40,729 bases of DNA from a candidate division TA06 bacterium (GCA_016208585.1 JACQXR010000101.1:1-40729), one strand, 5' to 3'. Shown: positions 2,321 to 35,190, numbered from the stretch's first letter. Notes: generated by a model from the letters alone, not told the origin. Made by a program: numbers and translations.

Positions 2321-3457
2321 TTACTTATGCGTGCCGTGCTTGTAGAACGGCGTCTCCACGCCCTTCGCGGGAACGGGTTTGCCGCGGACCTCAACCTCGA
2401 AGGTATCGCCAGTCTTGGAGAATTCCGTTTCGACATAGGCCATGCCGATGCCGCGCGACACCGAGGGCGAAAACACGCCGCTGGTTACCTCACCGATCTG
2501 CTCCCCGGACTTTATGACTTTGTAGTGCTGGCGCGGGAAAGCGTTGCCCTCGACCTCGAACCCGATCAATTTCCGCTTTACGCCTTCCGCTTTCTGCTTT
2601 AGGAGGACCTCCCGGCCATTGAATTCCCCGGCTTTTTTCAGCTTGGTGATCCAACCCAGGCCTGCTTCCAACGGAGAGGTGGTCTGGTCGATGTCGTTGC
2701 CATAGAGACAGTATTTCATCTCTAGCCTTAAACTGTCCCTGGCCCCCAGCCCGATGGGCCGCAGGTCAAACTCCTTGCCCGCTTTGAAAAGGGCTTCCCA
2801 AATCTGATCGGCGTATTTGATGTCGAAATACAGCTCAAACCCGTCCTCGCCGGTATAGCCGGTGCGGGAGACTATCATCTCTATCCCGTCAACTTTTCCC
2901 ACCTTGAACCAGTAGAACTTCATGTCCGAAAGCTTTAAGTCGCAGATCTTCTGGAGTAAGGGTTCCGACTTGGGCCCCTGCAGCGCCAGCTGGGCGACTT
3001 CGTTGCTAGTATTTTTTAGGGAGACATCAAACCCCTTGGCCTGCCCTGAGTCCGGATCGTGCCGGACCGCCGAACGGACCTGCTCCTGGAGCCAGGCAAA
3101 ATCCTTGGCCAGGTTGGAGGCGTTGACAACCAAAAAGAAGTGCTCGGGGAAGCGGTAGACCAGCAGGTCGTCGACTATGCCGCCGTCCTGGTAGCACATG
3201 GCCGAGTATTGGACCTGGTCCACTGCCAAAGCCGCGGGATCGTTGACCGTGACGTAGGAAACGAATTTCAGGGCAGCGGGGCCCCGGACTTCTATCTCGC
3301 CCATGTGGGAGACGTCGAACAGCCCGGCGGCGGATCTGACGTGGCGGTGCTCCTCGATGATGCCATGGTACTGCACCGGCATCATAAATCCGGCGAAGGG
3401 CACCATCTTGGCGCCGGCTTTGACGTGATGTTCGTAGAACGGAGTCTTGTTCTCCAT
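2321..3457 (-). CDS. gcvT: aminomethyltransferase (glycine cleavage system T protein)
   Basis: GcvT releases ammonia from the aminomethyl-lipoyl H protein and passes the one-carbon unit to tetrahydrofolate in the cytosolic glycine cleavage complex. The 378 residues match the usual length. Diagnostic segments: VPFAGFMMPVQY near residue 19, GLFDVSHMGEI (about 46-56), SRTGYTGEDGFELY (about 198-211) and GLGARDSLRLEMKYCLYG (about 237-254, folate pocket), then the C-terminal barrel with GEVTSGVFSP. No gcvH, gcvP or lpd lies next to it in the window. The ATG is the natural family start and is preceded by AGGGAA. Confidence 0.96.
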   Translation of the reverse strand: MENKTPFYEHHVKAGAKMVPFAGFMMPVQYHGIIEEHRHVRSAAGLFDVSHMGEIEVRGPAALKFVSYVTVNDPAALAVDQVQYSAMCYQDGGIVDDLLVYRFPEHFFLVVNASNLAKDFAWLQEQVRSAVRHDPDSGQAKGFDVSLKNTSNEVAQLALQGPKSEPLLQKICDLKLSDMKFYWFKVGKVDGIEMIVSRTGYTGEDGFELYFDIKYADQIWEALFKAGKEFDLRPIGLGARDSLRLEMKYCLYGNDIDQTTSPLEAGLGWITKLKKAGEFNGREVLLKQKAEGVKRKLIGFEVEGNAFPRQHYKVIKSGEQIGEVTSGVFSPSVSRGIGMAYVETEFSKTGDTFEVEVRGKPVPAKGVETPFYKHGTHK

Positions 3458-3527
3458 GGCTGTTCCCTATAGATATATTATGAATTTTTAGTTTTTACGA
3501 AAGGAATTCACCCGGATACAAATTGTT

Positions 3528-3558
3528 AGTATAGCCGGGCTATTTTCAATTGAAAATA
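3528..3558 (-). promoter_or_regulatory. gcvT promoter candidate overlapped by an 18-bp palindrome
   Basis: On the minus strand TATACT (3533-3528) and TTTTCA (3556-3551) are 17 bp apart and lie about 70 bp before gcvT. The -35 is embedded in a perfect palindrome, TATTTTCAATTGAAAATA (3541-3558), which has the size and symmetry of an operator for a dimeric repressor. Which regulator binds, if any, is unknown. Confidence 0.45.
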
Positions 3559-3628
3559 AGATAACTTCCAAACTGTTTACAAAGATTTCCTGACTTCCTG
3601 AATTCCTAAGTAAGGTTCCCCGGCCGGC

Positions 3629-5125
3629 TCAAGGCGCTATCTCCAGCAGTCTTCCCAGGATCGCATCCTGTATCCGCCGGACCTCGGTGGCCTTGCCGGG
3701 ATAATTGTTGAACATCATGGCAAAGCAGTAAACTTTCCGGCCGGGAGAAAAGGCAAAGCCGGCCAGGCAGGAGACCCCGGTCATGGTGCCGGTCTTGGCC
3801 CGCACCTTTATTGGGGCGCCGCCGTTCTGCATCCGGCGGTAAAGAGTGCCGTCCACCCCGGCCACCGGCAGGGCCTCCAACAGTTCGGTCTGCAATAAGG
3901 GATCGTTATACAGCGTTGTCAGCACCTCGGCCACCTGGCGGGGATAGCACAAATTATAGCGGGAAAGTCCGGAGCCGTCGGCTACCCTGAAACTCCCGGG
4001 AACAAAACCCATCCGGTGCAGGTTTTCTTCCACTCCGTTCAGGGTGTCGGAATCCGGAGACCCGAAGGCGGAGCTGTCCTTGGAGACCTGTCTAAAAAGC
4101 ATCTCGGCGATGAAGTTGTCGCTTTCCTTGTTCATTTTCTGGATCATGGCATACAGCGGAGGCGAATTGTGCCAGGCCAGGCAGGTCAAAGCTTCCGGGG
4201 TTTCGCCTTTCTTGACCCGGCCGTTGAATTTGATCCCCTGTTTTTGCAGGGCCTGGACGAACAGGGCCCCGCAGTACAAGGCCGGCTCGGAGACGCTGAA
4301 CGAATTATACTGCACCGAGTCATCCTGGGGCAGATGTCCGGTAAGAGTGAAGATGTCTTTCCCATTGTAATGGGTGCGCTCGGCTTTGATCTTCCTTTTT
4401 ACCCCAGACCGGCTGGTTACAACCCGGTTTTGGATATTTAAATAGGGCAGGTCGGGGCTGACATTGACCGAGGCCTGGCGGCCTACTTTTGAGGACGGCC
4501 TTAAGCTTGTTTCAAAGATATTCTGGTTGCAGGACAGGGCCGAAATGGGGGCATTGTAGGCATGAGGGCCTTCGTCCCACATCCAGCCCGCCCCGTATTT
4601 GACCGTGTCCAGATACGAGGCGTCCGCTAACAGGTCTCCTGATATTTGGGTAATGCCCCGCGATTTGAGCCGGAAAGCCAGGGCCTCCAGATCGGAATAA
4701 GAAAGCAGGGGGTCGCCGAACCCCTTTAAGTAGATATCCCCTTTGAGCTTTCCTCCGATCCATAGAGAGTCGCCGTAAACCGCCGTCATAAACTGGCGGG
4801 ACGGCCCCAGGTCGTACAGGGCGGCGGCGGTGGTGAATATTTTATTGACCGAGGCCGGGATGAAAAGCTGGTCCTGGTTCCTGGCATAGAGAGGATGAGA
4901 GCCGTTCAGTTCTATCAGATACAGTCCGCACTGAGCCTGCCACAGGGAGCTGTCGGCCAAAAGCGAGTCTATGCCTGAGGCCAGCCGGGCCCGTTTAATA
5001 GCCATGCTGTCCGGAACGATGGTGGCCGTCAGCGGTTCCTGTTTTACGACCGAGTGTCCCCCGCAGCCGGCCAAGCCCAAGACCAGCAGGGCCGCAAAAG
5101 CAATATTGATATTGTTATTACGCAT
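3629..5125 (-). CDS. dacB: D-alanyl-D-alanine carboxypeptidase/endopeptidase (S13, PBP4/DacB type), lipoprotein
   Basis: This penicillin-binding protein of the S13 family trims or cleaves peptidoglycan cross-links in the periplasm. The N-terminus has a hydrophobic signal peptide and lipobox LAGC with the lipidated Cys at residue 21. The three active-site motifs are present: SVNK (Ser92 nucleophile, Lys95), SDN in KESDNFIAEM (about 332) and KTG in RAKTGTMTG (about 440). The long insert between the first two motifs is characteristic of the PBP4 class. At 498 residues it matches DacB length. The lipoprotein signal is less common than the usual Sec signal. It lies 35 bp upstream of the TPR cluster's end with no obvious functional link. 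Confidence 0.92.
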   Translation of the reverse strand: MRNNNINIAFAALLVLGLAGCGGHSVVKQEPLTATIVPDSMAIKRARLASGIDSLLADSSLWQAQCGLYLIELNGSHPLYARNQDQLFIPASVNKIFTTAAALYDLGPSRQFMTAVYGDSLWIGGKLKGDIYLKGFGDPLLSYSDLEALAFRLKSRGITQISGDLLADASYLDTVKYGAGWMWDEGPHAYNAPISALSCNQNIFETSLRPSSKVGRQASVNVSPDLPYLNIQNRVVTSRSGVKRKIKAERTHYNGKDIFTLTGHLPQDDSVQYNSFSVSEPALYCGALFVQALQKQGIKFNGRVKKGETPEALTCLAWHNSPPLYAMIQKMNKESDNFIAEMLFRQVSKDSSAFGSPDSDTLNGVEENLHRMGFVPGSFRVADGSGLSRYNLCYPRQVAEVLTTLYNDPLLQTELLEALPVAGVDGTLYRRMQNGGAPIKVRAKTGTMTGVSCLAGFAFSPGRKVYCFAMMFNNYPGKATEVRRIQDAILGRLLEIAP

Positions 5126-6507: not shown

Positions 6508-8069
6508 CAGGCGTCCTCAGTTCTGGCCAACCATCCCCTGGCCCCGATTCTTTCAAAAATTTCCCTGGCCTTGTGCAGATATTCCCCGGCTTCTTTAGTA
6601 TTTTCCTGTGTCCGGCATTCTGGCTTCCGTATTCTGGACGTAAGCATTTCGCCATAATAATAGTATGCCTTTGCCAGCTCCAACGGTTGCTCTATTTCCC
6701 TGAAGGCCGAGATCGCTTCCATAAATTCGCCCTCGGACACTTGCCATTTGCCCGCTGCCGCGGTAATCCGGGCCCGCAGCAACAATGCTTCGCCCGTCCC
6801 CATTCTCGAGCTCAGCGCCCGCGCCAGTTCCAGCGCCTGCTCCGCGTGTTGTCTCCCGATAATCTCCAGGGTCCCCAGGTCTCGACCGGGCTGTCCCAGC
6901 CATTGTTCCAGTTCCAGCGATCCCTGTGCGACCGCTACTCGGCGCAGCAGTTCCCGTTCGCCGGTCTTCTGCGCGATTTCCCCGGCAGCCAGGATATGCC
7001 GTTCCGCTGTGGCCAGGTCGCCCGCCTCGTGCTCTATCCTGCCAATGTTGACAAGGCTTATAGCTTGGCCGCTGCGGTCCCCGATCTCGCGCCTGATCTC
7101 CAGCGAGCGTTGATGGTCCTCAAGGGCGGAGCGATGAACGCCTTGGCTCTGGTGCACGTTGCCTAAATTGTTGCAGCAAAGGGCCAAGCCCCGGCGGTCG
7201 CCGGTTTCTTCGGCTATCTCGTGCGCCTGCACGAAACAGGCTTCTGCGGCCGGAAAGTCGCCCAGGTTGTGATGCATGATGCCGATGTTGTTTAAGCTCA
7301 TCGCCTGGCCGCTGCGGTCCCCGATCTCCTGCTTGATCCGCAACGACCGGGTGTAGCAGTCGAGGGCGGCGCGGTACTCGCCCCGGCCGTTATGCACCAA
7401 GCCTATGTTGTTGAGACAATAAGCCTGGCCCCGACGGTCGCCGATCTGGCGATAGGCCTCAAGCGCCCCCGTGTAATGCTCAAGGGCGGCGGTTTGGTCG
7501 CCCAGCCGGTTGTGCACCAGGCCGATGTTGTTAAGACAGGTCGCCTGGCCGCGGCGGTCTCCGATCTGCTGAAAGATCCCCGCGCACTCGCCGTAGCGCG
7601 ACAGCGCTGCCGGATACTCGCCCAGGCTGTTGTGCACGTTGCCAAGGCTGCCGAGGCTGTCGGCCTGGCCCCGGCGGTCACCGGTGGCCATGCTGATCCG
7701 CAGCGAGTCGGTGTAGCGCTCCAGCGCCAAGTGGTAGTCGCCCAAACCCTCGCGGGCGCAACCGATGCTGTTTATGCTTTCCGTTTCGCCCCGGCTGTCG
7801 CCAATCTCGCGGTATAGGCGCAAGGCATCCTCGGCCAGCCGCAGCGATACGTCGTTACGGCTGATGTCACCGTAAACCCCGCTCGACTGCCGCAGACAGT
7901 CAGCCTCGGCCTGGCGATCGCCGTTCGTCCGGGCGTGGCGCAGCCCGATTTCGATGTCGTGCAGCGCCTGGTTGTTCCGGCCCACAAGGTTCAGCACCTC
8001 GGCCCGATGCTGGAGAATATGAATCAGACGACGGTAATCAATGACGCGATTGGCCGCTGACGACGCCAT
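6507..8069 (-). CDS. tetratricopeptide-repeat protein, GC-rich paralogue (second of three)
   Basis: This 520-residue protein has the same layout as its neighbours: an RRLIHILQHRAEVLNLVG start, about nine 40-residue TPR units of the type IGDRRGQAxCLNNIGLVHNRLGD, and a C-terminal EIFERIGARGWLAR tail. Base composition differs sharply from the flanking paralogues: codons are GC-rich and Arg-rich (RR, GDRRGQA) where the others use Lys and A/T-ending codons. This suggests separate origin or long divergence before the three were placed together. It is coupled on both sides by TGATG overlaps. Near the 3' end it shares a 49-bp identical stretch with the upstream paralogue. Confidence 0.9.
   Translation of the reverse strand: MASSAANRVIDYRRLIHILQHRAEVLNLVGRNNQALHDIEIGLRHARTNGDRQAEADCLRQSSGVYGDISRNDVSLRLAEDALRLYREIGDSRGETESINSIGCAREGLGDYHLALERYTDSLRISMATGDRRGQADSLGSLGNVHNSLGEYPAALSRYGECAGIFQQIGDRRGQATCLNNIGLVHNRLGDQTAALEHYTGALEAYRQIGDRRGQAYCLNNIGLVHNGRGEYRAALDCYTRSLRIKQEIGDRSGQAMSLNNIGIMHHNLGDFPAAEACFVQAHEIAEETGDRRGLALCCNNLGNVHQSQGVHRSALEDHQRSLEIRREIGDRSGQAISLVNIGRIEHEAGDLATAERHILAAGEIAQKTGERELLRRVAVAQGSLELEQWLGQPGRDLGTLEIIGRQHAEQALELARALSSRMGTGEALLLRARITAAAGKWQVSEGEFMEAISAFREIEQPLELAKAYYYYGEMLTSRIRKPECRTQENTKEAGEYLHKAREIFERIGARGWLARTEDA
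6599..6647. repeat. 49-bp direct repeat, copy 1 (inside the second TPR gene)
   Basis: The stretch is identical to 8161-8209. In both genes it is in frame and encodes the insert around SRIRKPECRTQENTKEA, which the third paralogue lacks (that protein goes directly from YYYGQALGRLEK to the terminal helix). Flanking sequence to the left is also similar with a few mismatches. Confidence 0.8.
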
Positions 8070-30814: not shown

Positions 30815-31109
30815 CAATCAAATAATCGAAGCCATGACCCTTTTGGCCGAAAAACTGGGCCTGTCCATCAAATTCGACGAATTTGAGGGCCGGGGCGGCT
30901 GGTGCAAGTTAAAGGGCACAGAAAAGATCATCATCAACAAGCGGCTGATGCCCAAGGAGCAGATAAGGATCCTGGCCCAGATCCTGGTCCGGTACCCCAC
31001 CGAGGAGCAGGCCATGCCGCCCAAGATCCGCCAGCTGATTGATGATGCCAAAGAGGAAAACTTGGACAAAGAGGAGCCGCAAACCGAACTGGAGGTCGAA
31101 GAAAAATGA
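30807..31109 (+). CDS. conserved-looking small protein of unknown function
   Basis: This 100-residue protein begins MRDNQIIEAMTLLAEKLGL. The middle, GRGGWCKLKGTEKIIINKRL followed by MPKEQIRILAQIL, reads like a two-strand segment followed by a helix. The tail is highly acidic (EEENLDKEEP...ELEVEEK). No catalytic motif, signal or membrane segment is seen. I have the impression of a family of similar short proteins in other uncultured bacteria but cannot name it. The start overlaps the decayed RAYT end by 8 bp and has no clear Shine-Dalgarno. The stop overlaps the next gene (ATGA), so the two are coupled. Confidence 0.65.
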   Translation: MRDNQIIEAMTLLAEKLGLSIKFDEFEGRGGWCKLKGTEKIIINKRLMPKEQIRILAQILVRYPTEEQAMPPKIRQLIDDAKEENLDKEEPQTELEVEEK

Positions 31110-31630
31110 GTATGACAATCTGCCGGGAATGCAAAAAAGAGGTCAGCCCCAATGCCCGGAGCTGCCCCCACTGCGGGGCGCCCCAGCCGGCCAATCAAGT
31201 ATGGAACGGGTGGGGCTTTGACTGGAAGTCCAAAACTTCTTACTACGGCTGGCCCCTGGTCCACGTTTCAATCGGCAAGGACCGGAACGGACGCTTAAGG
31301 GTGGCCAAGGGCTGGATCGCCATCGGACAGTTCGGCGTCGGCCTGATAACCATCGCCCAATTCGGGGTGGGGGTGCTGTTCGGCTTCGGACAGTTCATCT
31401 TCGGGCTTACCGCCATCGCCCAGTTTGCGGTGGCCCTGCTGTTCGGGCTGGGGCAGTTCGCCACCGGCTACATTGCAGTCGGGCAGATCGTCTTCGGATA
31501 CTACGGCCTGTGCCAGACTGGCTTGGCCGCCCACCTGTGGAGCCAGAAATTCAGGGACCCTGAAGCGGTGCGGTTCTTCAAGCAGCTGGCGGAACATCTG
31601 GGATCGCAGATGCTCAACCAGGTAAAATGA
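31106..31630 (+). CDS. zinc-ribbon membrane-associated protein with Gly/Ile/Ala-rich repeats
   Basis: A 174-residue protein. The N-terminal zinc ribbon is CRECKKEVSPNARSCPHCG (residues 5-23, two CxxC pairs). A segment YYGWPLVHVSIGKDRNGRLRVAKGWIAIGQF follows. Then come about five degenerate repeats of the form xAIGQFxxGxxxxGQF (about 72-135), strongly hydrophobic and glycine-rich. They could be short membrane helices or a stacked beta structure. The same repeat-plus-ribbon layout is found in small uncharacterised bacterial proteins. Translationally coupled to the preceding gene by ATGA. Function unknown. Confidence 0.75.
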   Translation: MSMTICRECKKEVSPNARSCPHCGAPQPANQVWNGWGFDWKSKTSYYGWPLVHVSIGKDRNGRLRVAKGWIAIGQFGVGLITIAQFGVGVLFGFGQFIFGLTAIAQFAVALLFGLGQFATGYIAVGQIVFGYYGLCQTGLAAHLWSQKFRDPEAVRFFKQLAEHLGSQMLNQVK

Positions 31631-31726: not shown

Positions 31727-32353
31727 ATGCCCCACTGCAAAAAAAACATCTCCCTGCCCGAGCAAGCCACCAGCTTTACCAAGGACTTTCTGGACCTCTG
31801 GGTCTCCGACAAGGAGGGCATCAAGATCGGGCGGGTATCCGACCTGGCTATCAAGATGGGCGAGGAATTTCCCACCGTCTCCTCGGTGGTGGTGGCGGTC
31901 AAGCTGCGGATCAGCCTTTTCGGCTACGCCAAGTTCGAGGCGGTGGTCCCCTGGCGCCAGGTGAAAAGCCTGAACGAGAAAGGCATCGCCTTGCGGATCG
32001 CCTACAGCGAGGTCAAGACCGGCAAGCTGGAACAGGGGGAGCTGCTTCTGAAGACTAACGTGATGGACCAGCAGATAGTAGACAACGAAGGCCGGAAGAT
32101 CCTGCGGGTCAACGATGTCAAGCTGAAGTGCTTCAGCGAACACCTCCGGCTGGTGGGGGTGGAGGTGGGCATCAAAGGCCTGCTCTATCGGCTGGGGGCG
32201 GGGCGGCGGCTGGAACGGCTGGCCAATCAACTTAACGTAAAGATCATAGAAAACATCATCATGTGGGACTTGGTGGAACAGTTTGACAACGAAATGAAAC
32301 GGATAAAACTTTCCATCTCCCAGGAGATACTGAAGGACCTGATAAACCTATGA
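31727..32353 (+). CDS. PRC-barrel-like protein, paralogue of the MgtE_N protein's N-terminal half
   Basis: This 208-residue protein has two PRC-barrel-like units: residues about 20-95 (LWVSDKEGIKIGRVSDLAIKM) and about 105-165 (NVMDQQIVDNEGRKILRVNDVKL, then VGVEVGIKGLLYRLG). The same order and wording recur in the next protein (DKQVVDTRKKKVYRVNDIEV, VRWVDAGLAGLLNRLG). This protein ends at about the point where the MgtE_N domain begins in its paralogue (SISQEILKDLINL against EKLSKLHPADIADI), so it looks like a duplicated copy without the Mg-sensor part. First gene of an operon; the stop overlaps the next ATG (ATGA). Confidence 0.7.
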   Translation: MPHCKKNISLPEQATSFTKDFLDLWVSDKEGIKIGRVSDLAIKMGEEFPTVSSVVVAVKLRISLFGYAKFEAVVPWRQVKSLNEKGIALRIAYSEVKTGKLEQGELLLKTNVMDQQIVDNEGRKILRVNDVKLKCFSEHLRLVGVEVGIKGLLYRLGAGRRLERLANQLNVKIIENIIMWDLVEQFDNEMKRIKLSISQEILKDLINL

Positions 32354-33573
32354 GATACCTATCGCACTATCTTCACCGCCAGGTGCATTTCAAAAAACAG
32401 CACCTGGGCGAACTGGCGGACTGGATAATGAACGCCCGCCCCACTCAGGCCGAGCTGGCCGGCCTGGCGATCACCGACAATGACGGCCGGGAGCGGAGCA
32501 TCTCCTTAAACGACGTGGAATCGCTGGGCCACCGTTACATCTACCTGAAGCGGAACCTGGATGAATGTCCGGATCTGGCTCCGGCCGAGGGCCAGATCCG
32601 GCTGGCCGAGCACATCCTGGACAAGCAGGTGGTGGACACCAGAAAGAAAAAAGTTTACAGGGTGAATGACATCGAAGTGGAACAGGAGGGCGAACGCTTC
32701 CTGGTGCGCTGGGTGGACGCCGGACTGGCCGGGCTTTTGAACCGGCTGGGCCTGCCGGAATCTTTGCAGCCCAAGTCGGGAAAGATGCAGCGCCGCATAG
32801 CCTGGGCCAACGTGGAGCCGCTGGATCCGGATCTGAAGAGCAGTTTTGAAAAGCTCTCCAAGCTTCACCCGGCCGACATCGCCGACATCGTGGAGGAACT
32901 AGGGGTCACCCAGGGGGCCAATCTATTAGAGCGGCTGGACGACGAGACCGCGGCCGAGACCCTGACCGAGGTGGAGCCGGCCATGCAGAGCGACATCGTG
33001 GAAGAGATCAAGCCCCAGGATGCCGCCGACATCATCGGGGAGATGGAGCCGGACGATGCCGCCGACCTGATCTCCGACCTGCCCCAGGAGACCGCCCGCC
33101 AGATAATGAACGAGATGGAGTCCGAGGAAAAGGCCGAAGTTCAGGAACTGCTGCAGTACCTGGAGGATTCGGCCGGGGGCATCATGAACAACGACTATCT
33201 GGCGGTGTCCAGGAGGCAGACGGTGGAGCAGGTGCTCAATAAATTCCGGGCCGATAAACCAGAGCCCGAAGTAGCCTATAACCTGATCGTGACCGAGGGC
33301 GGGGAAAAACTGGCCGGGGTGCTGTCGCTCCGAGATCTGGTGGTGGCCCTGCCCCAGACTAAAATAGACGATCTGATTATCACCGACACACCGACGGTCC
33401 GGCCCGATACCCCCTTGAGCGAGGTGGCCGACCTGTTCTCCAAATATGACTTGGTGATGCTGCCGGTGACCGACCATGCCCGGCAGGTGCTGGGGGTGAT
33501 CACGGTGGACGACGTGATAGAACTGGTGGTCCCCGAGAAATGGAAACGCTCCCACCGCAAACGCCTGATCTGA
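32350..33573 (+). CDS. PRC-barrel / MgtE_N / CBS-pair protein (soluble Mg2+-sensor-like)
   Basis: A 407-residue protein without transmembrane segments. Domains: two PRC-like units (about 35-70 and 88-135); an MgtE N-domain superhelix (about 175-275) with the repeats LHPADIADIVEEL, IKPQDAADIIGEM, MEPDDAADLISDL and LQYLEDSAGGIMN; and a CBS pair (about 277-400) with GVLSLRDLVVAL and GVITVDDVIELV. In MgtE channels this N-CBS cytoplasmic module binds Mg2+ and closes the pore. Here the MgtE pore domain is absent and an NRAMP-type transporter gene follows one base after the stop. A regulatory subunit for that transporter is the likely role. Confidence 0.88.
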   Translation: MRYLSHYLHRQVHFKKQHLGELADWIMNARPTQAELAGLAITDNDGRERSISLNDVESLGHRYIYLKRNLDECPDLAPAEGQIRLAEHILDKQVVDTRKKKVYRVNDIEVEQEGERFLVRWVDAGLAGLLNRLGLPESLQPKSGKMQRRIAWANVEPLDPDLKSSFEKLSKLHPADIADIVEELGVTQGANLLERLDDETAAETLTEVEPAMQSDIVEEIKPQDAADIIGEMEPDDAADLISDLPQETARQIMNEMESEEKAEVQELLQYLEDSAGGIMNNDYLAVSRRQTVEQVLNKFRADKPEPEVAYNLIVTEGGEKLAGVLSLRDLVVALPQTKIDDLIITDTPTVRPDTPLSEVADLFSKYDLVMLPVTDHARQVLGVITVDDVIELVVPEKWKRSHRKRLI

Positions 33574-33574
33574 C

Positions 33575-34810
33575 ATGAAGAAACTCTGGATCAAATTAGC
33601 GCTGATCTTCGGCGTAGTGGGGCCGGGCCTGATCACCTCCTTCGCCGACAACGACGCCGGAGGCATCACCACCTATTCCATCGCCGGGGCCCGCTACGGG
33701 TATTCCCTGCTGTGGATGCTGCTCTTGATCACCTTCGTGCTGGCCTTCTTCCAGGAGATGGTGGCCCGGCTGGCGGCGGTCACCGGCAAGGGGCTGTCCG
33801 ACCTGATCCGGGAGGAGTTCGGCCTGCGCTGGACCCTGTTTGCCATGATCGTGCTGTTGGTGGCCAATTTTACCACCACCATCGCCAATTTCGCCGGGAT
33901 CGCGGCCAGCCTGGAGATCCTGGGGGTCAGCAAATATATCTCCGTTCCGGTGACGGTCCTGGCCCTTTGGCTTTTAGTGGTCAAGGGTTCCTACCGTTTT
34001 GTGGAAAGATTCTTCCTGATAGTGGCCCTGTTCTTTGCCGCCTATGTCATCGCCGGGTTCCTGGCCAAGCCGGACTGGGGCCGGGCGGCGGACAGCCTGG
34101 TCAAACCGACCCTGGTCTGGAAGGCCGATTACTGGGTGATCTTCATCGCCACCATCGGCACCACCATCACCCCCTGGATGCAGTTCTACCTGCAGTCCTC
34201 GATCGTGGACAAGGGGATCACCATGAAGCATTACGGCTACGTCAAGCTGGATGTATTCGTGGGGACATTTTTCACCAATTTCATTTCCTTTTTCATCATC
34301 GTCACCTGCGCCGCCACCCTGTTCAAGGCCGGCATTCCGGTGCATAACGCCGAGGACGCCGCCCTGGCCCTGGCCCCCATCGCCGGGAAATATTCCTCGG
34401 TGCTGTTCGCCGTCGGGCTGTTCGTGGCCTCGATGATGGCCGCCTCCATCGTTCCCCTGTCCACCTCCTACGCCATCTGCGAAGCCTTTGGGATGGAGAC
34501 CGGCATCAATAAAAACTTCAGCCAGGCCCCCATATTCTTCAGCCTGTATACCCTGCTGCTGATCCTGGGCGGGGCGGCCATCCTGATCCCCGGCCTGCCC
34601 CTGATAAAAGTAATGCTGTTCGCCCAGACGGTGCAGGGCGTCCTGCTGCCCGTCATCCTGATATTCATCCTGCTGCTTTTGAACAACCGGGACGTGATGG
34701 GGGACCACGTCAATTCCAAGTTCTACAACATAGCGGCCCTGATCGCGGTGGCCGGGATAGTGCTGGCCTCCCTGATCCTGCTGGTGCTGACGCTGATGGG
34801 GAAGACCTGA
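33575..34810 (+). CDS. NRAMP-family divalent metal transporter, probably the Mg2+-type (NRMT-like)
   Basis: A 411-residue, 11-helix inner-membrane transporter. Helix 1 reads GPGLITSFADNDAGGITTYS, where canonical Mn/Fe NRAMPs have the metal-binding DPGN. The helix-6 region SFFIIVTCAATLFKAG lacks the soft-metal-binding Met usually found in A-M-x-A. The rest, with FFQEMVARLAAVTGKGLSDLI and STSYAICEAFGME, fits the family. Loss of both signature ligands is expected in NRAMP-related Mg2+ transporters. The preceding gene encodes an MgtE-type Mg2+-sensing module, supporting the same substrate. Substrate assignment is inference; family membership is firm. Confidence 0.88.
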   Translation: MKKLWIKLALIFGVVGPGLITSFADNDAGGITTYSIAGARYGYSLLWMLLLITFVLAFFQEMVARLAAVTGKGLSDLIREEFGLRWTLFAMIVLLVANFTTTIANFAGIAASLEILGVSKYISVPVTVLALWLLVVKGSYRFVERFFLIVALFFAAYVIAGFLAKPDWGRAADSLVKPTLVWKADYWVIFIATIGTTITPWMQFYLQSSIVDKGITMKHYGYVKLDVFVGTFFTNFISFFIIVTCAATLFKAGIPVHNAEDAALALAPIAGKYSSVLFAVGLFVASMMAASIVPLSTSYAICEAFGMETGINKNFSQAPIFFSLYTLLLILGGAAILIPGLPLIKVMLFAQTVQGVLLPVILIFILLLLNNRDVMGDHVNSKFYNIAALIAVAGIVLASLILLVLTLMGKT

Positions 34811-34866: not shown

Positions 34867-35109
34867 GTGAAAACAGCCGGTTATATCATCGCCGCCATCC
34901 TGATATTCTTCGGGGTGCTTTTTCTGATGTCGGCCCGGGCCGAGTATTCCGCCAATCCGGGCAGCCGGATCATCACCGGGCTGGCGTTGTTCGCGGCGGG
35001 CATCGGTATGGCGGTGGCACTCAGGAAGAGCCAGCTTAAGCCCGACCAGAAGATCGAAATCGTCCAGAAAATTGATCTGGCCGGAAAATCCCTGCCCGAG
35101 CAGCGGTAA
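34867..35109 (+). CDS. small two-helix membrane protein, truncated by a frame disruption
   Basis: This 80-residue protein starts at GTG with GGAGG eight bases upstream. Two transmembrane helices (about 5-23 and 38-54) are followed by a cytosolic tail ending EIVQKIDLAGKSLPEQR. In look-alike proteins such a tail runs on into a two-CxxC zinc ribbon ending NCPYCG.YQ.TEEPKW. Here a TAA intervenes, and the second half of that ribbon is found in a different frame just downstream (35121-35183). The gene therefore appears frameshifted, with the first CxxC deleted, unless the short product is functional on its own. Confidence 0.6.
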   Translation: MKTAGYIIAAILIFFGVLFLMSARAEYSANPGSRIITGLALFAAGIGMAVALRKSQLKPDQKIEIVQKIDLAGKSLPEQR

Positions 35110-35120
35110 GGGAGGGAGCG

Positions 35121-35183
35121 GTGTTCATAAACTGTCCCTACTGCCAAAGCGCCTACCAGATAACCGAAGAGCCGAAATGGTGA
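35121..35183 (+). pseudogene. detached zinc-ribbon tail of the preceding gene
   Basis: A GTG after GGGAGGGAG opens a 20-codon frame, FINCPYCQSAYQITEEPKW, with a single CPYC knuckle. In the same frame the upstream codons add VREGA. It resembles the C-terminal end expected for the upstream small membrane protein but lies out of frame with it. The strong purine run could also let it be translated as a separate micro-ORF. Confidence 0.5.
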
Positions 35184-35190
35184 GAGAAAA

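Follow-up and report, generated by a model that had tools for sequence, protein, structure and literature searches.

Three adjacent genes (A, B and C) of the window, i.e., the whole 40,729-nucleotide stretch of DNA analyzed here, form a tight operon on one strand, with a 4-bp ATGA overlap at the A/B junction and a one-base gap between the stop of B and the start of C. The genes and their residues of interest are located as follows.

31727–32353, + strand: gene A, double PRC-barrel protein (208 aa)
32350–33573, + strand: gene B, double PRC, MgtE_N and two CBS domains (407 aa), detached sensor, no membrane domain
33052–33066, + strand: D235 and D239 of B, corresponding to D91 (Mg4) and D95 (Mg6) of T. 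thermophilus MgtE, N-domain side
33511–33570, + strand: D388 of B, corresponding to MgtE D247 (Mg4), then the truncated basic plug region ending EKWKRSHRKRLI
33575–34810, + strand: gene C, Nramp-related, NRMT-type putative Mg2+ transporter (411 aa)
33653–33664, + strand: helix-1 metal-site motif D27-A-G-G30 of C (DxxG; DPGN in MntH)
34157–34177, + strand: helix-6 motif G195-T-T-I-T199-P-W201 of C (TxxT; canonical Ala/Met replaced by Thr/Thr, first His by Trp)

Chance or misread ORFs were rejected as an explanation for A, B and C, since ORFs and domains were confirmed and the B-C pair recurs in many phyla. The host genome (2.5 Mb, 167 contigs) contains one Nramp gene, one MgtE_N gene and one CorA gene. 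An Rfam search of the window gave no match to an M-box or any other riboswitch, and counts of sigma-70 promoters and terminators that might mark the operon were not above those in shuffles. Just upstream of A (31106–31630), a zinc-ribbon protein with hydrophobic repeats (IGQFGVG, IAQFGVG) is encoded, which is kept in the sister genome G003. The region downstream of C (34867–35190) encodes a small membrane protein of 80 aa, as compared to 123 aa in relatives; the gene is truncated, since of the C-terminal zinc-ribbon-like part of the relatives (CQQCG...CPYC) nothing but a partial remnant is left here, located past the stop codon.

Protein B comprises a double PRC barrel (about residues 1–165), an MgtE_N domain (172–273, E=1.7e-27), a CBS pair (about 280–393, E=2.2e-17) and a basic tail (394–407). 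The chain ends at residue 407, directly past the CBS pair, and has neither a transmembrane pore nor the TM5 aspartate (D432). Accordingly, a domain search for the MgtE channel domain (PF01769) matched neither B nor any other protein of the host genome, bearing out the sequence-only reading of B as an MgtE_N-CBS sensor detached from its channel. In the AlphaFold model (pLDDT 85.8), the N-terminal ~165 residues, which are homologous to A, form beta-rich PRC-like units. The best PDB match in a fold search with this model was the MgtE cytosolic domain with Mg2+ (2yvy; E=6.4e-20, TM-score 0.84 over the target), and a PDB sequence search with B likewise retrieved the MgtE cytosolic domain. A search of the available paper library for PRC barrels together with MgtE found nothing.

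In MgtE, site Mg4 is formed by D91 and D247, Mg6 by D95, Mg7 by E59 and Mg2/Mg3 by E258 and D259 (PMC5882242). The equivalents of the Mg4, Mg6 and Mg7 residues in B of the window are D235 (D91), D388 (D247), D239 (D95) and E203 (E59), and an acidic residue is kept at these positions in nearly all of 66 homologues (64, 64, 63 and 60 of 66, respectively; for D235 and D239, these counts are all Asp). E258 and D259 of the plug helix correspond to K399 and R400 in B and to mostly basic residues in the homologues. Hence B has retained the elements by which the N domain and the CBS pair close on each other, and in place of those contacting the channel pore it has a basic tail. The residues of the ATP site (sites from PMC5529423) are partly kept in B, with N311 for Tyr170 and L368 for Phe227. 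Given the loss of Mg2/Mg3 and the poor conservation of the ATP site, any signal from B would have to travel otherwise than in MgtE.

Gene C encodes an Nramp homologue (PF01566; 320 bits, E=1.9e-95), as the sequence-only reading had stated for the gene one base downstream of the sensor gene. Among solved relatives, EleNRMT (7qia) is by far the best match (E=1.2e-109; 45 % identity over the whole chain), all other solved Nramps scoring 5.3e-30 or weaker. The references DraNramp and E. coli MntH carry DPGN in helix 1 and GATVMP/GATIMP in helix 6, whereas C has D27-A-G-G30 and G195-T-T-I-T-P200, with T199 at the position of the helix-6 Met. Both canonical elements are thus absent from C, as had been noticed before; of the helix-1 motif, the replacement of DPGN stands, but the motif originally given as DNDAGG is better written DxxG (DAGG). 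According to Ramanadane et al. (PMC8806188), NRMTs are recognized by DxxG in helix 1, TxxA/T in helix 6 and the loss of the proton-pathway histidines of helix 6b. C displays D27-A-G-G30 and T196-T-I-T199, and at the position of the first histidine has W201, a Trp also present in EleNRMT. Glu133 of EleNRMT aligns with Asn105 of C.

In a FastTree phylogeny rooted on 16 canonical MntH-like rows, C groups with EleNRMT (support 0.879) and lies in an inner clade of 49 rows (support 0.989) that is free of MntH rows. The protein thus clusters with NRMT rather than with Mn2+/Fe2+ MntH, in line with the Mg2+ type initially expected for it. Assignment of C to MntH or canonical Nramps was rejected in view of its position outside the MntH rows and the absence of DPGN and of the helix-6 Ala, Met and His. 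By motifs and phylogeny, C is best classified as a putative NRMT-type Mg2+ transporter and not as MntH. A profile made from Rfam M-box matches detected an M-box upstream in 31 of the 49 loci of this clade. The order M-box, B, C is found in Sporomusa, Desulfosporosinus, Pelosinus and Geobacter, and in six Bacillota loci an M-box precedes C alone. Upstream of B-C operons of Pelosinus (L055, L063, L072; ~3000–3490), M-box riboswitches occur as a tandem pair, which in L055 was also detected by Rfam.

The association of sensor and transporter genes across taxa, on which the sequence-only reading had relied, proved to be strong in two data sets. Among the 80 nearest relatives of C in GTDB genomes, 65 are accompanied by a full B gene, which with few exceptions lies immediately upstream in the same orientation and in many cases overlaps C by 4 bp; two have a PRC-only gene, and 13 (one of them at a contig edge) are without B within 5 kb. 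The second data set comprised 290 sampled genomes, in which an Nramp hit was counted as NRMT if at least 43 % identical to C, and a B gene within 1.5 kb as linkage; MgtE_N matches were considered down to E of about 1.5e-21, with genomes G192 and G277 settled from their loci. Among the matches listed, B lies within 1.5 kb of 25 of 28 NRMT genes (in 23 cases directly upstream and on the same strand), but of only 2 of 75 other Nramp genes (Fisher p=1.9e-18 among the matches listed, a value to be taken as indicative, since the genomes are related). Conversely, an NRMT-type gene is present in 30 of the 31 genomes that encode a PRC-MgtE_N protein. Based on gene neighbourhoods, the linkage of B to NRMT is real, broad and near-obligate, and the locus of the window is probably an NRMT magnesium-uptake operon with an extra gene A.

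Variants of the arrangement include a PRC-MgtE_N-CBS gene downstream of a more distant Nramp relative with 36–37 % identity to C (L148, 3440–4762; L152, 1436–2731) and, in Anaerolineae, a tandem of two NRMT-like genes behind a single B gene (L091, 2233–6416). No natural fusion of B and C was found, the long Nramp ORFs of L151, L155 and L158 being devoid of MgtE_N, CBS and PRC domains; apparent overlaps of B and C in L092, L095 and L099 result from open or early ORF starts.

Protein A scores exactly at the cut-off of PF05239 (21.2 bits), its relatives above it. Its similarity to residues 56–163 of B (29 % identity, E=3e-13) confirms the PRC-type paralogue noticed upstream of the sensor gene and identifies A as a true paralogue of the N-terminal part of B. 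That B starts with such a double PRC region as well had gone unmentioned in the sequence-only reading. In the tree, A groups (support 0.998) with PRC-only genes from another lineage (L027/L163 and L100), where a gene of ~200 residues is located directly upstream of NRMT (L027, 4203–4805; L100, 1605–2207). No MgtE_N or CBS gene is present within these loci. Gene A is not part of the usual operon: most operons consist of B and C, a few of a PRC-only gene and C, and all three genes together were encountered solely in the small phylum to which the window belongs. The three-component system proposed from the sequence is therefore not general. Two sister genomes of this phylum, G002 and G003, have lost B and the greater part of C through separate deletions (L016, 1254–1460, and L017, 1815–2052, respectively), whose end points differ and whose joints show short shared bases; in G002, the initial codons of B now run into the final 39 or so codons of C. 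Gene A is intact in both and under purifying selection (dN/dS about 0.1); hence A may work without C, or the deletions may be recent.

The B and C genes of the window seem to differ in their histories. C is sister to the C proteins of Margulisbacteria (support 99/98; compared loci L021–L025), whereas B is very divergent, and a tree constrained to unite it with B of Margulisbacteria was rejected (p-AU 0.002). An exchange of the sensor gene is a possible cause of this discordance, though the long branch of B calls for caution.

Five B proteins of Coriobacteriia/Actinomycetota that adjoin NRMT (L058, L070, L076, L077, L095; genes within about 2516–4965) have kept the acidic plug and a C-terminal membrane region. 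An hhalign comparison matched the whole of this region to the whole of the MgtE pore domain (probability 99 %, 17 % identity), and the model of the L070 protein matches full-length MgtE over 447 columns, its membrane part being of low confidence. The GGNxGxQ-like stretch and the TM5 Asp are absent in all five, whereas the TM5 Asp is present in 14 of 14 intact MgtEs. By these residues, the membrane regions are degenerate MgtE pores. Genome G128, which contains no NRMT-type gene, encodes a 618-aa protein (L192/L197 on contig G128:C77; ORF at 6818–8674 of L197) in which a PRC barrel is joined to an MgtE that is complete and seems intact. Together, the dead-pore B proteins and this intact PRC-MgtE suggest that B descended from a PRC-MgtE channel; the tree leaves the direction of descent unsettled.

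A tentative scenario, which may well not hold in full, extends this descent. The detached sensor would be what is left of a whole PRC-MgtE channel that lost its working pore, the gating half having been put to new use in controlling a carrier of unrelated fold; in Coriobacteriia, from which EleNRMT comes, the dead pore would have persisted as a membrane-embedded partner. Docking would be provided by the double PRC barrel, allowing PRC-only proteins such as A to pair with NRMT without a sensor. On this view, an NRMT carrier would comprise two subunits and be gated by Mg2+, and the work on EleNRMT would have been done without its partner.

For the operon of the window, we infer that C imports hydrated Mg2+ without proton coupling, by analogy to EleNRMT. 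B would be a soluble Mg2+ sensor derived from the cytosolic half of an MgtE-type channel and attached to C from the cytosolic side by means of the double PRC barrel and the basic tail. Docking via PRC is proposed because the double barrel is common to every partner, including those of the PRC-only lineages lacking B. When cytosolic Mg2+ is plentiful, the N domain and CBS pair of B would close around Mg2+ as in MgtE, and closed B would lower the activity of C, resulting in negative feedback. A may use the same docking surface without carrying a sensor, so as to serve as a further adaptor or to compete with B. Against the model, the window contains no riboswitch match, so that control of this very operon by Mg2+ is no more than presumed. 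Taken as a whole, this model is the reading towards which we lean.

The model has to be set against published data on NrmT (Shin et al. 2014, PMC4072509). There, the NrmT of C. acetobutylicum transported in complementation assays without need of the MgtE-N fragment, and rescue by the A. capsulatum transporter was no better when the fragment was co-expressed. The allosteric gating suggested in the sequence-only reading is thus unsupported as stated. The lack of effect on rescue is compatible with an inhibitor active only at high Mg2+, but does not speak for it; Mn2+ transport by the A. capsulatum protein, the lost Mg2/Mg3 sites and poorly conserved ATP site of B, and the NRMT loci without B within 5 kb also count against the model. 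Shin et al. guessed at feedback as the role of the fragment, with metal-chaperone activity as the alternative.

Apart from inhibition, B could sense Mg2+ and aid C, as activator, chaperone or metal-handing scaffold, or could act off transport on ribosomes or RNA by means of its PRC barrels, the operon merely grouping genes of Mg2+ homeostasis. RimM, a binder of ribosomal S19, likewise contains PRC barrels, and the intact gene A of the two genomes that lost B and most of C would agree with a function beyond transport. These readings are in keeping with the chaperone activity offered by Shin et al. and with the missing effect of co-expression in their work (PMC4072509). However, the near-confinement of B to NRMT-type genomes, its overlap or abutment with C and the five membrane-tailed B proteins adjoining C point to the transporter itself, and we regard these roles as unlikely.

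Even less probable appears a system of the kind suggested for the A. capsulatum pair, with Mn2+ as the main substrate of C (or Mn2+ together with Mg2+) and B as an Mn2+ sensor. In its favour, the A. capsulatum NrmT fully rescued an Mn2+-transport mutant, while its rescue of a Mg2+ mutant was confined to Mg2+ in the low millimolar range (PMC4072509). C of the window belongs to the M-box-rich sub-clade (31/49), which includes none of the Acidobacteriota loci found (L057, L083, L099), and its DxxG-TxxT site lacks the Asn and Met ligands for transition metals. That A and B are hitch-hikers or relics, left over from an MgtE gene beside the transporter taking its place and functionally unconnected to that transporter, would accord with the loss of B and most of C in both sister genomes through different short deletions; yet conservation of order and overlap over many phyla, retention of the Mg2+ residues and intact reading frames throughout render this very improbable.

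Control of NRMT by a borrowed MgtE sensor has been a standing question since 2014. If such control is real, a channel fold and a LeuT-fold carrier are gated by one and the same Mg2+ sensor module, which would be a clear case of regulatory domains exchanged between unrelated transporters, and purified NRMTs would have to be studied differently. The sensor question is open to direct tests by way of the conserved residues, the PRC-only pairs and the Coriobacteriia partners with dead pores.

Compared to known systems, C shares the Nramp fold with the Mn2+-H+ symporters of the MntH/Slc11 type (DraNramp, E. coli MntH), but lacks their DPGN and helix-6 Met/His. It resembles EleNRMT of Eggerthella lenta (7qia; PMC8806188) in DAGG, the TxxT/A motif and the Trp replacing the first helix-6 His, and differs from it in Asn105 (Glu133 in EleNRMT); EleNRMT was studied alone, without a partner. 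B has the N domain, the CBS pair and the D91/D95/D247/E59 equivalents in common with the MgtE channel of T. thermophilus (2zy9/2yvy), but is devoid of its transmembrane domain and acidic plug helix and has additional N-terminal PRC barrels. The closest counterparts are the operons of NrmT and MgtE-N fragment described by Shin et al. 2014 (PMC4072509; e.g., Clostridium acetobutylicum Ca_c0685), in which a gene for the MgtE cytoplasmic domain adjoins most NrmT genes, often behind an M-box. The window shares this gene pair, while no M-box was found in it and the PRC-only gene A is added upstream; the double PRC barrel of B is not mentioned in the passages of that paper considered here. The C. acetobutylicum fragment is said there to be split in two genes, which does not imply equivalence to A and B. 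Pairing of B and C has thus been known since 2014, and of the novelty attributed to the system, the variant operon with A stands, while the association as such was already published; the window represents a variant of a known, unexplained system. New here are the linkage counts, the operon with gene A, the PRC-only pairs, the B/C deletions in sister genomes and the pore-dead B proteins of Coriobacteriia.
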